Shown piece after piece: positions 57,456 through 61,704 of a DNA stretch of 64,000 nucleotides. Every line of letters begins with the position of its first letter. The first letter of the stretch is position 1. The DNA is from Candidatus Saccharimonadota bacterium (GTDB lineage: Bacteria; Patescibacteriota; Saccharimonadia; Saccharimonadales; Saccharimonadaceae). Below the pieces are notes generated by a model. It did not search any database. It worked only from the letters and a program-made list of their open reading frames with translations, and was not told where the DNA came from. Location of the stretch: NCBI GenBank assembly GCA_017515105.1, contig JAFWHO010000004.1, positions 186,001 to 250,000 on the forward strand. The letters run 5' to 3'. Position numbers and translations under genes: made by a program.

Positions 57456-59207
57456 TTATACCGCACCTGGCTTTATTTTCATATAATCGATTAGGTAATT
57501 TGAAAGCGTGTCAAAAAGGTCCATAGCGTCGCTACTACTGATACTCTTTCCTTCCCCCCACATTTTGGTCATGATAATATATTTTGGCATTTCGCCGCTC
57601 GTAGCCACAAAGCCAATGTAAGAGCCTACTAGCTCGGAGAAAGAGTCGTCATAGGCACCATCTCGGACAACCTGAGCGGTACCGGATTTACCACCAACGT
57701 CGTAGCCGGCGCGATCGATGCCGCCACGTTTCTTGTAGCTACGGTTGTTAATGAGCATTTCGCGCATCATGGCGGAGGTTTCGTCGGTGAGGATTTTGTC
57801 TTCAACTTTTTCGGTGTTATCAATGATTTCTTTGTTTGATTCGACATCGGCGAGGACGGACGGCGTACGCCAAGTACCGCCGTTCACGACGGCTGAGAAT
57901 GCGGTGGCGGTTTGAAGCATGGTGATACTGAGGTTCTGGCCGAAAGTGAGGTTGGCATAGGTGGAGTCGCGGCCCCAGCCTTCGTTTGGATCAGGGATGA
58001 AGCCTTCAGCCTCGGCTAACTCTACACCGGTAACGTGGCCAAGGCGGAATTTATTGTAGTAGTAGTCAAATAGCTTTTCCCTGCCTTGTTGGTTGATGTG
58101 GGAGGGATCGTCACCGAGGAGTTTGAGCGCATAAATTGAGCCGGTATTTAGGGACCAATATAAAGCATCTCGCATAGTAAGCGTGCCGTAAAGTTTGCTA
58201 CGCTGCTCGGCGTTCCAGATTTTCCATTCGTCAACAATTTCGTAGTGCTGGTTAAAGTAGGTGGTGTCTGGGGTCATTTTACCCTCGTTAATAGCGGCAG
58301 AAAAAGCGAAGTTTTTACAGATAGAAGCCGGCTCGTATGGGATGTCGGTAACGTAGTTATTGAAGGCGGCGGCATCTTTCACATTACTATAATTATTTGG
58401 GTCATAGTTTGGAAGATTGGCCATAGTGAGGATTTTGCCGGTGTTTGGGTCCATAACGAGGACAGATGCGTTGGTGGCGGCGGTTTTATCGATAGCTTCC
58501 GCAGTCAGTTCTTCGATGCCCTTCTCGAGGCTACGGTCAATACTGAGGACGATATTTGCGCCGTCACTCGCGGGGATTTTGATATTATCGGTGCCGATTG
58601 AGAGAGCAACATTGTTAACGTCTGAGGTGGTTTTGATGAGGCCGTCTTTACCAGCTAAGGCCTCATTTAGCGAGCCTTCGACGCCGTACTGCCCAAGACC
58701 TTCGTTGTTGACAAAGCCAAGTAGGCCTGAGGCAAATTCACCTTCGGGATAAACGCGTTGGTTGTTTTTCTTGAGCCAAATGGCGGGGATTTCGGACTTT
58801 GCGATTTCCTCGGCGGTCTCACGCGGAACGTTTTTCGCGATAATGGCATAGCGTAATCCTTCCTGGTTATAAACTTCGTCTAGATTTGCCACTTGATAGT
58901 CCTTAGCGTAAGTGTTCATAACTTTTTCGGCATCCTCTTTTTTGGTGACGGTTGGGTCAATCACTATCTGATAGGCGGCCTGGTTCAGCACGACTGCAAC
59001 CGGCTCGTCGTGGTCCATCATATAGATTTCGCCACGTTTTGCGGTGATGGTTTCGAGGAGCGTGTGCTGCTCATTGGCTTTGGCCACCCATGCGTCATGC
59101 TCAAAAATTTGGATGAAAAATAGTCGCGCAGTGATAATCACCAAAGCGACTAAGGTAATATTTCGTAAAATGGATAATCTGTGTTTGACTTGTTTATTCT
59201 GTGGCAT
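57456..59207 (-). CDS. ftsI: Penicillin-binding protein 2/FtsI (transpeptidase)
   Basis: Class B PBP of the divisome, 583 aa. TM at residues ~13-33; dimerisation domain with GEIYMMDHDEPVAV and RVYPEGEFASGLLGFV; transpeptidase domain with SxxK as EPASICKNFAFS, SxN as WSLNTGS and the KTG box as GGKSGTAQV. The active Ser and Lys are present. ATG 59207 overlaps the end of ftsL by 14 nt; the longer frame to 59243 has no ribosome binding site. Confidence 0.94.
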   Translation of the reverse strand: MPQNKQVKHRLSILRNITLVALVIITARLFFIQIFEHDAWVAKANEQHTLLETITAKRGEIYMMDHDEPVAVVLNQAAYQIVIDPTVTKKEDAEKVMNTYAKDYQVANLDEVYNQEGLRYAIIAKNVPRETAEEIAKSEIPAIWLKKNNQRVYPEGEFASGLLGFVNNEGLGQYGVEGSLNEALAGKDGLIKTTSDVNNVALSIGTDNIKIPASDGANIVLSIDRSLEKGIEELTAEAIDKTAATNASVLVMDPNTGKILTMANLPNYDPNNYSNVKDAAAFNNYVTDIPYEPASICKNFAFSAAINEGKMTPDTTYFNQHYEIVDEWKIWNAEQRSKLYGTLTMRDALYWSLNTGSIYALKLLGDDPSHINQQGREKLFDYYYNKFRLGHVTGVELAEAEGFIPDPNEGWGRDSTYANLTFGQNLSITMLQTATAFSAVVNGGTWRTPSVLADVESNKEIIDNTEKVEDKILTDETSAMMREMLINNRSYKKRGGIDRAGYDVGGKSGTAQVVRDGAYDDSFSELVGSYIGFVATSGEMPKYIIMTKMWGEGKSISSSDAMDLFDTLSNYLIDYMKIKPGAV

Positions 59208-59541
59208 AACCTGATACCGTAGCATGCTCCATGTTGGCCGCAACGGTACTGTTTTTTGCTGTGGCCACCGAGTTAAGACGTGCCCTTTCTACTGCGAGAT
59301 CATCTTTTTTGACATTCATTTCGGTAATTTCGGATTCAACGGAGGAAATTTCGTAATCAAAGCTGGTGGCTTTGGTGCCTTCAGCGACATAAATAAGACC
59401 AAAAACGAGGGTAAGCATACAAATAATAGCAATCTGCGAGATAGAACCAAGGCTGCGCTTGGTATGACGGACTGTATTTCGGTTTCTGACAAAGCTCTGA
59501 GACATGGGCTCTCTTCTTGTCACGTAGGTTTGATTAAACAT
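59194..59541 (-). CDS. ftsL: FtsL-like division protein
   Basis: 115 aa: basic cytoplasmic N-terminus (RRE...RNRNTVRHTKRS), one TM at ~residues 36-54 (IAIICMLTLVFGLIYVA), then a coiled-coil extracellular segment (FDYEISSVESEITEMN; AVERARLNSV). This is the classic FtsL/DivIC layout, between rsmH and ftsI where ftsL belongs. GAGGAAA precedes ATG 59541. Sequence similarity in this family is always low, so topology and place carry the call. Confidence 0.82.
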   Translation of the reverse strand: MFNQTYVTRREPMSQSFVRNRNTVRHTKRSLGSISQIAIICMLTLVFGLIYVAEGTKATSFDYEISSVESEITEMNVKKDDLAVERARLNSVATAKNSTVAANMEHATVSGYATE

Positions 59542-59587
59542 TTTTGATTTTTCCTCGCTTATTGTTTATTTTTATTTTTATCAATTC

Positions 59588-59783
59588 TTTTTATTCTTGT
59601 CTTAGTCCGGGGTCTTTTCAAAAGCAGAGCTATAAGTAACTTTTGATAGTGTCCCCGGGAAGGTCATACATGTTTCACACACTCTGTGAAAACTCTTTTT
59701 GGCGGACCACACTCTGGTCCATGTCAGCCAGTCCCGGAATACTCTCGGGCTCGTGTTAACTCACCCGAGAGCTAAGGGGGAGA
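59588..59783 (-). promoter_or_regulatory. Highly structured transcribed region between the 21-aa ORF and ftsL
   Basis: On the minus strand, hairpins follow in series: CTCTCGGG with CCCGAGAG; GGACCA with TGGTCC; TTTTCACAGA with GTGTGAAA; and a long one, CCGGGG...TATCAAAAG with CTTTTGAAA...CCCCGG. No T-run follows, so it is not a simple terminator. It lies in the rsmH-ftsL transcript and could be a riboregulator of ftsL/ftsI or a processed RNA. Confidence 0.55.
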
Positions 59784-59849
59784 CTAGCGGAAATTTACCT
59801 TAACAGTTTGTTTGCGGGACTTGTTCGCAACAACGATTTGTTTTGGCAT
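59784..59849 (-). CDS. 21-aa basic microprotein ORF in the dcw cluster
   Basis: AGGAGG sits 5 nt before ATG 59849, the best-placed ribosome binding site of the cluster. The frame encodes MPKQIVVANK followed by 11 further residues and TAG. It is basic (4 Lys, 2 Arg), with alternating hydrophobic/polar residues (QIVVAN, TVKVNF) fit for a short beta hairpin. Not in the family lists known to me; too short for similarity to be decisive. It could be a genuine small protein or a leader peptide whose translation controls the downstream RNA structure. Confidence 0.55.
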   Translation of the reverse strand: MPKQIVVANKSRKQTVKVNFR

Positions 59850-59880
59850 TTTGCCTCCTTTTTTTATGTTTTTATTTTTA

Positions 59881-60756
59881 TCAATTCCGCTTCGCTACTC
59901 GCAGCTTTGCGCTTCTAGCTCGCGGGTTGATAACTAACTCCTGTTCCTCCGCAATGATTGGTTTTTTATTAACGATGGTTAGCTCTGACTCTTCGCCGAA
60001 GCTAGACGCTGTTTTGAAAAATTCCTTGACAAGGCGATCTTCTAAACTGTGGAATGTGATAATTCCGAGACGGCCACCTGGGTTTAGTAATTTCGGTAAA
60101 TACGGGAGAGTTTTTTCGATCTGGCCCAGTTCATCGTTGACCGCGATACGGATAGCCTGGAAGGCCTTAGTAGCGGGATGAACTTTGGAATGCTTGTTAG
60201 TTTTTGATTTGATCAAATCTGCAAGCTCCGTGGTGGTATTAATGGGGCGATGATGCACAATTTCTCTTGCCAGCATCGCAGCGCGACCAGGGCTTTCTTC
60301 GCCATACTTTACTAATATCATCACTAATTCTTTCTCGCTGCTGTGATTCACAATATCCGCTGCTGTTCTTTTTTGCCTCTGGTCCATCCGCATATCCAAC
60401 GGGGCTTCATTTTTGAATGAAAAACCACGCTCTTCCTTGTCTAATTGCGGAGAAGAAACTCCAAAATCCGCAAGTATTATATCAAAAGTCTTTCCACACT
60501 CGAAAAGCTGCAGCACCGCATTATAAAAATCTGTATGCATTATGGTGATATCGTGCGGGAATTTCTGCTTTAAATTACTAACAGCAAATTCATCACGATC
60601 CACAAGGCATGAATCTTTATAATTCTGTGTCACATCCAAAATCTTACTAGCGTGTCCCCCGTAGCCGGCAGTTAAATCTAGATATTTATCTCCGGGATGC
60701 GGTTCTAGGGTCGCTAGGACTTCCGATAACAATACTGGAATATGTAATTTCTCCAT
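59881..60756 (-). CDS. rsmH: 16S rRNA (cytosine1402-N4)-methyltransferase RsmH
   Basis: SAM-dependent methyltransferase (MraW), 291 aa. HIPVLLSEVLATLEPHPGDK at the start, DLTAGYGGH (SAM site), ILADFGVSSPQLD, RGFSF, and GRLGIITFHSLEDRLVKEFF near the end. First gene of the dcw cluster; mraZ is absent in front of it. Leaderless: minus-strand TATAAT 60768-60763 ends exactly 7 nt before ATG 60756. Confidence 0.96.
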   Translation of the reverse strand: MEKLHIPVLLSEVLATLEPHPGDKYLDLTAGYGGHASKILDVTQNYKDSCLVDRDEFAVSNLKQKFPHDITIMHTDFYNAVLQLFECGKTFDIILADFGVSSPQLDKEERGFSFKNEAPLDMRMDQRQKRTAADIVNHSSEKELVMILVKYGEESPGRAAMLAREIVHHRPINTTTELADLIKSKTNKHSKVHPATKAFQAIRIAVNDELGQIEKTLPYLPKLLNPGGRLGIITFHSLEDRLVKEFFKTASSFGEESELTIVNKKPIIAEEQELVINPRARSAKLRVAKRN

Positions 60757-61033: not shown

Positions 61034-61340
61034 AAGGAACGATTTTGTTTAGCGTTTTTGTATTATTGTTCGCTGAATTCAGTTTATTATATTTTTTTTG
61101 AAAATGCAAGTGTTTTTTTAAAGATTTTTTAGTTTTTTTGTTTTACACAATTGTGGAAAACTCCCCTGTTAATTTCCCGAACATTTTGTGCTGCAAAAAC
61201 CGAACACTTGTTTTTACTGGGGTGGCAAAAACCGAACACGTGGGGTTGATTTTTTGGCGGATTGTGGTGTGGCGGTGGGTTTTATGGGGGGGTGGGGTGC
61301 TTGGTGTTTCCCTGTTTCTCTCTTAGTGTTTCCCCAGTTC
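61034..61340. other. Intergenic stretch without a supported gene
   Basis: AT-rich to ~61140, then G-rich. Two AAAAACCGAAC copies (61195-61205 and 61227-61237) and CCCCTGTTA (61163-61171) echo the motifs at the other end of the dcw cluster. The open frames here lack ribosome binding sites. Confidence 0.5.
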
Positions 61341-61369: not shown

Positions 61370-61424
61370 ACTGGTTATGTAGACAGTTTGCCATCTGCAA
61401 AAAAAAGGAAGAGAGGTGAGTTTA

Positions 61425-61671: not shown

Positions 61672-61704
61672 GCCGGCCCCCATATTTCCGGAGCCGGCTT
61701 TTTA
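61672..61704 (+). terminator. Terminator of gene 61425
   Basis: GCCGGC (61672-61677) pairs with GCCGGC (61693-61698), extended by CCC/GGA, then T5. Confidence 0.85.

Follow-up and report, generated by a model that had tools for sequence, protein, structure and literature searches.

An apparently unannotated microprotein gene directly after rsmH in Saccharimonadia loci and a covarying intercistronic RNA, possibly a processing site, behind it

Saccharibacteria live as ultrasmall episymbionts, and their genomes are reduced. In the 64,000-nt stretch of a Saccharimonadota contig analysed here (the window), rsmH and an ftsL-like gene are separated by a segment that carries a 21-codon open reading frame (micro-ORF) and a run of hairpins, flanked by 19-bp direct repeats. 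What is this segment? A sequence-only reading had offered three answers: a mobile insert, a small division protein, or a leader peptide joined to an RNA switch that controls ftsL-ftsI. The neighbourhood also holds mraY-, ftsW- and murG-like genes. The features that matter here are, in the direction of transcription:

59881..60756, minus strand: rsmH (mraW), the upstream gene (Pfam PF01795, E 7.2e-92)
59869..59887, minus strand: direct repeat copy that runs across the stop codon of rsmH
59854..59859, minus strand: Shine-Dalgarno AGGAGG of the micro-ORF, read from the sequence, 4 nt before the ATG
59784..59849, minus strand: micro-ORF of 21 aa, MPKQIVVANKSRKQTVKVNFR, stop TAG, supported by class-wide conservation and by dN 0.17 against dS 1.69
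59741..59772, minus strand: P0 hairpin, a few nt past the micro-ORF stop, from folding
59599..59724, minus strand: structured RNA core (model R1), from covariation and a covariance model match at E 6e-23, the window sequence being one of the model's own rows
59700..59720, minus strand: P1, an acceptor-like helix GGACC..GGUCC followed by GCCA (59703-59700), with U(-1) at 59721
59673..59691, minus strand: P2 hairpin UUUCACA..UGUGAAA, from folding, outside the covariation count
59659..59668, minus strand: conserved single-stranded UAUGACCUUC, present as UGACCUUC in 43 of 46 rows
59607..59658, minus strand: P3, a long hairpin of three helices with 16 covarying pairs and a conserved loop, UUACUUAUAGCUCUG
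59569..59587, minus strand: direct repeat copy before ftsL, in an A-rich linker
59194..59541, minus strand: ftsL-like gene of 115 aa, a probable ftsL by its place before ftsI and its hydrophobic segment
57456..59243, minus strand: ftsI (PBP3-like; PF00905 and PF03717)

The repeats could suggest a mobile element. The two copies are identical and their starts lie exactly 300 bp apart, as first described. None of 500 dinucleotide shuffles produced an exact repeat as long as 19 bp, and this is the sole 19-mer that recurs within the 64-kb window; a repeat longer than in any shuffle speaks for an insertion with target duplications of 19 bp at its ends. Against this stands the comparison of the linker at the end of rsmH with the linker preceding ftsL in 49 loci of the genus (a few genomes are represented twice, and 48 loci have a located ftsL start). 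The two linkers share exact A-rich matches of 5–17 nt in every one of these loci except the two copies of this genome, where the match reaches 19 nt. Because shorter A-rich matches are common in the genus, the 19-bp repeat is the extreme case of a common A-rich linker and marks no insertion. Moreover, the ORF occupies the same place in all same-genus and class loci that were read, and among these loci no empty site lacking the micro-ORF was seen inside the class. A search of 50,697 phage records yielded no match, and no viral relative of the locus, sought through FtsL, was confirmed. Conservation at one place rules out the mobile insert, to which we assign virtually no probability. The segment would instead be an ancestral gene unit of the class.

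The micro-ORF is a conserved coding gene in the genus. It was present after rsmH in all 34 same-genus loci in which rsmH was found, this genome included; the set began with a spacer search in 60 genomes, followed by reading of the loci, and two same-genus genomes whose fetched places lacked rsmH stand outside the count. In the genus loci whose upstream sequence was read, GGAG or GGAGG precedes the micro-ORF. The AGGAGG of the window is strong and sits slightly close to the ATG (4 nt), at a spacing that the sequence-only reading had called ideal. Most loci follow the peptide consensus MP[KR]QIxVxNKSRxQxxKVxFR and end in TAA, TAG or TGA. Across 39 distinct 21-codon ORFs the proportions of synonymous and nonsynonymous differences were 0.67 and 0.16, giving dN 0.17 and a dS of 1.69 that is near saturation. 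Change is thus mostly synonymous and the gene is under purifying selection, which is the pattern that the sequence-only reading had set as a check. Its suggestion of a small division protein held insofar as a conserved coding gene exists; a role in division is conjectural, and the micro-ORF lies nearer to rsmH than to ftsL.

The peptide itself offers few structural clues. Its predicted structure has a pLDDT of 73 and a pTM of 0.16 with zero strands assigned, although the sequence pattern can be read as two strand-like stretches (I-x-V and V-x-V). A search of the PDB returned nothing up to E 10, and a Pfam scan of the 14 of 30 family members long enough to be searched gave one weak match, in one member (PF22640, E 0.016). 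Two further ideas were discarded. Mimicry of the C-terminal tail of RsmH (NPRARSAKLRV against NxSRAYKVKV) fails since the SR core is absent from most of 30 family genomes, and a frameshift or bypass fusing the micro-ORF to ftsL fails since the length of the gap spans all three frames.

The gene extends well beyond the genus. One fixed pattern found the micro-ORF in 155 of 156 in-class rsmH loci, a count biased by the fact that these loci were largely found via the peptide or the spacer itself and one in which five genomes occur twice; a further 11 of the 167 loci fetched had a missing or partial rsmH and stand outside it. The sole in-class miss, L271, has a related ORF that begins MR. The same pattern found the micro-ORF in none of 26 rsmH loci from other classes of the phylum, where there is often no gap, or even an overlap, between rsmH and the following ORF, and in four of 78 named loci; three of the four are titled Saccharibacteria and the fourth, titled only 'bacterium', was counted as a Saccharibacterium by assumption. 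A less biased set is formed by 30 genomes from the family, of which 26 had no profile match, three had weak matches taken as chance and one, G161, had a true match; all 30 carry a version of the micro-ORF at rsmH, mostly diverged (e.g. MPIHITVQYADQPQVVAVRVK). Likewise, in the other orders of the class the micro-ORF is present at four of four rsmH loci (e.g. MSIKISNLSTKAVSVKVKVRKK; a fifth genome gave no rsmH match), and it is present at all 39 loci with a readable rsmH among 40 further places in the order.

In profile searches, the genus peptide profile matched 85 of 197 genomes of the order at E up to 1, and of 36 further match places that were fetched, 30 lay directly after rsmH and six elsewhere. 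An order-wide profile had matches in 148 of the 197 with an E threshold of 0.1, no fewer than three of which are chance matches; among the 49 without a match, the locus was read in 26. At the same threshold a phylum-wide profile hit 31 of 379 genomes; 18 of them belong to the order, the remaining 13 are weak partial matches, and the rsmH loci of three of these 13 (G393, G453 and G567), when read, lacked the micro-ORF. A microprotein gene of 19–27 aa beside rsmH therefore appears, from these sequences, to be kept across the whole class. Genes of this size fall under the usual limits of gene callers, and the family, which immediately follows rsmH across the Saccharimonadia loci read, is apparently unannotated. 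Among the matches listed, open-licence literature on Saccharibacteria contained no report of the micro-ORF or of the RNA behind it. A gene fixed at one place through a class likely matters to bacteria with reduced genomes, and the micro-ORF with its hairpin is a good candidate for basic, unstudied Saccharibacteria biology.

The sequence between the micro-ORF and ftsL is structured. As the sequence-only reading had it, about 195 nt of dense hairpins follow the ORF with no T-run after them, and the spacer folds beyond shuffles (z −4.76 for 339 nt and −4.52 for 201 nt). In the genus, P0 is followed by a conserved core of P1, P2 and P3. A covariance model of this core matched all 15 same-genus genomes sampled (one weakly, E 0.0018; four of the 15 had supplied training rows to the model) and a genome of a sister genus (G140, E 2.9e-5), and matched four further genomes at only E 0.24–0.81, which we take as chance. 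Among fetched loci the model matched 47 of 51, including three of five from the sister genus; the match is absent from L020 and L037 of the same genus and from L054 and L055 of the sister genus. All 21 pairs of P1 and P3 changed on both sides, and the hairpins thus covary, as the proposed check had asked. Cells with changes on both sides numbered 267; shuffles gave 66 and slid controls no more than 71. Pairing was possible in 92.6% of cells, against 63.5% when shuffled and at most 57.5% with slid partners, all counted on a model-fitted alignment, which favours covariation. This larger covarying RNA was found in the genus and one sister genus.

Several details of the RNA vary between loci. The P3 loop contains CUCU, and RGAGU lies upstream; both occur in 37 of 46 rows, but in three rows the loop changes while RGAGU stays; a pseudoknot between them is a lead. 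In L023, L033 and L037 the terminal loop of P3 is different (e.g. CGAUGCGGUGGUGCGG), as if exchanged. L055 and L056 of the sister genus carry TTTATTTTGACCGATA three times after the micro-ORF, and the same-genus spacer of L026 measures ~720 nt by ORF calling, with extra sequence ahead of the RNA core. With E up to 10, Rfam 15 gave nothing in the spacer, and its two weak snoRNA matches fall inside rsmH; five relatives gave no Rfam match at E up to 1. The Rfam candidate structured RNAs resemble this element in being covarying intergenic RNAs near core genes, and it differs from them in having no Rfam match. Could the ~200-nt RNA be an independent small RNA or a riboswitch-like element excised from the transcript? 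Its conserved unpaired motifs (UGACCUUC and the loop CUUAUAGCUCUG) suggest a binding partner. However, the genus copies sit between the micro-ORF and ftsL, and elsewhere in the order sample the model finds only the E 0.24–0.81 matches, so we regard this as very improbable.

Helix P1 has a distinctive sequence. In most rows of the genus and sister genus it reads AYAU, then GGNCC...GGNCC, then RCCA, and among 46 distinct rows U(-1) is found in 43, G as the 5′ base of the first pair in 45 and RCCA in 41. By sequence, P1 resembles the acceptor end of a tRNA (U(-1), G1 and R-CCA), an RNase P signature. Such mimicry would direct an RNase P-type cut just 5′ of P1, which in the window would fall between 59721 and 59720. 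Several papers bear on this proposal. A 3′ RCCA is a key RNase P determinant, though not an absolute one (PMC12710915, PMC10731613, PMC11143913), and RCCA and U(-1) are both common, again not absolute, in substrates of the enzyme (PMC10731613, PMC11143913). PMC10731613 also states that RNase P measures 12 bp in pre-tRNA and that it cleaves a hairpin in an operon mRNA, E. coli hisCD. The hisCD site resembles P1 in being a hairpin between cistrons of an operon mRNA, and P1 has the 3′ RCCA that RNase P uses; P1 differs in being kept in a pair of genera with U(-1), G1 and RCCA, in its helix of five pairs and in that its cut is putative. Cleavage at the acceptor-like helix, should it occur, would make this a conserved example of RNase P acting on an mRNA from the division cluster.

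As a control in the window, CCA was looked for 0–2 nt after 50 non-coding hairpins on both strands, P0 included, and found after one. That hairpin, at 61672-61698 on the minus strand, is followed at once by CCAAAAG. A search of 60 genomes of the order found class A RNase P RNA in 51, one same-genus genome included. It counts against RNase P that its RNA (RF00010) was not found in the present genome, which is 99% complete, perhaps through an assembly gap; a weak class B match in this genome was rejected, as it falls in an apparent coding region.

Outside the genus the arrangement of micro-ORF and hairpin recurs in other forms. The ATG of the micro-ORF overlaps the rsmH stop or lies at most 4 nt from it in 34 of 108 non-genus loci, and its start is within 30 nt of that stop in 95 of the 108. 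Peptide length (19–27 aa), the last residues and the stop codon (TAA, TAG or TGA) all vary. Of 107 non-genus spacers, 102 have a hairpin of 9 bp or more between the micro-ORF and ftsL, where shuffling gives 41 on average; a 7-bp threshold gives 104 of 107, which is weaker evidence than the 9-bp count as shuffles reach 64. The median folding z of these spacers is −4.86, with 89 of 107 below −3. The strongest hairpin begins a median of 13 nt past the micro-ORF stop (8–20 nt in 60 of 107 spacers), and many of these hairpins are followed by A-rich single-stranded sequence. P0 is possibly their counterpart, by position only.

The acceptor-like end is shared by some of these hairpins. Of the 107 non-genus spacers, 40 have RCCA immediately after a stem of 8 bp or longer, compared with 1–19 of 107 for eleven other tetramers. 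Set beside the roughly 12 bp of coaxial helix expected of an RNase P substrate, P1 has five pairs, which falls short and counts against the enzyme, and the RCCA hairpins of other families have 8–16. The 40 RCCA hairpins have G1:C72 in 24 cases and U(-1) in just nine, with no U(-1) preference, and the other 67 spacers lack RCCA at the helix. Because 67 of 107 lack it and U(-1) is not preferred, either RCCA is not the general function of the non-genus hairpin or RNase P is wrong.

We conjecture, tentatively and with somewhat less than even confidence, that the segment encodes a small protein whose synthesis accompanies that of RsmH, and that behind it lies a site of intercistronic processing, possibly for RNase P. 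A microprotein of 19–27 residues would be translated from its own ribosome-binding site, in many lineages with a start codon no later than the end of rsmH, and would act in trans after being made together with RsmH. Its partner is a guess; RsmH, the 30S subunit and the FtsL of the class are candidates. The structured RNA behind the micro-ORF would serve as the processing element. In the genus, P1 would mimic the acceptor end of a tRNA, and a cut immediately 5′ of it by RNase P, or by some other enzyme that recognises acceptor ends, would free an rsmH-microORF mRNA and leave an ftsL-ftsI mRNA with a structured 5′ end. A bolder form, in which a near-universal class protein tied to rsmH is accompanied in some lineages by an acceptor mimic through which RNase P cuts the division operon in two, has our low confidence. 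If true, a tRNA-processing enzyme would set ribosome maturation (RsmH) apart from septum synthesis (ftsL-ftsI).

The main rival is a cis-acting leader peptide, in which the nascent peptide or its ribosome senses a condition, alters the hairpin region and so controls ftsL-ftsI. Leader peptides such as TnaC, SpeFL and ErmCL comprise a short ORF with a strong ribosome-binding site and then RNA structure, and the micro-ORF likewise is short, strongly preceded and followed by structure. The regular pairing of micro-ORF and hairpin fits a cis-acting leader as well, with a hairpin of at least 9 bp after the ORF in nearly all non-genus spacers and the strongest one at a median of 13 nt past the stop, and the covarying RNA of the genus is elaborate enough for a switch. 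The 26 loci of other classes agree with it too: they have no micro-ORF, and the ORF that comes next often touches rsmH or overlaps it. On the other hand, TnaC stalls at its stop codon, and the variable stops, last residues and length of the micro-ORF argue against stalling of that kind. The hairpins of the window lack a U-run and the ftsL start lies under no stable local hairpin; neither an intrinsic terminator nor a masked ribosome-binding site was seen in the predicted fold of the window. The micro-ORF is also close to rsmH, and it is kept through a class, which to our knowledge is unusual for leader peptides. The RNA that the leader-and-switch proposal of the sequence-only reading calls for is real and covarying, and we consider the proposal possible though rather unlikely.

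The remaining alternative parts the two features, joining a small protein gene to an unrelated hairpin that purely stabilises mRNA by protecting the 3′ end of the rsmH-microORF transcript, with no role for RNase P. Strong hairpins in nearly all spacers, many of them followed by A-rich single strand, are in keeping with such an arrangement, as is the lack of RCCA from 67 of the 107 non-genus spacers. It leaves unexplained both the near-invariant U(-1), G1 and RCCA of the genus and the excess of RCCA outside it, and we judge it unlikely. The protein half of the preferred reading has precedents of its own: conserved bacterial small proteins of under 50 aa are known as a kind, and the micro-ORF is similar in being tiny, apparently unannotated, under purifying selection and placed in a core-gene operon. 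It differs in that 19 aa is near their lower limit and that PDB and Pfam yield nothing convincing. Some Saccharibacteria are culturable, so translation of the micro-ORF and processing of the RNA are directly testable.

The neighbouring genes and sequence offer some further observations. RsmH has its closest named relatives, among the matches listed, in ruminant-gut Saccharibacteria (73–74% identical). Pfam gives nothing for the ftsL-like protein (59194-59541) at E 0.01, and an N-terminal motif near RNxNTVxF is common to many of its relatives. Upstream of an ORF at 61416, the short motif GCAAAAACCGAACAC occurs twice at 61193-61239.
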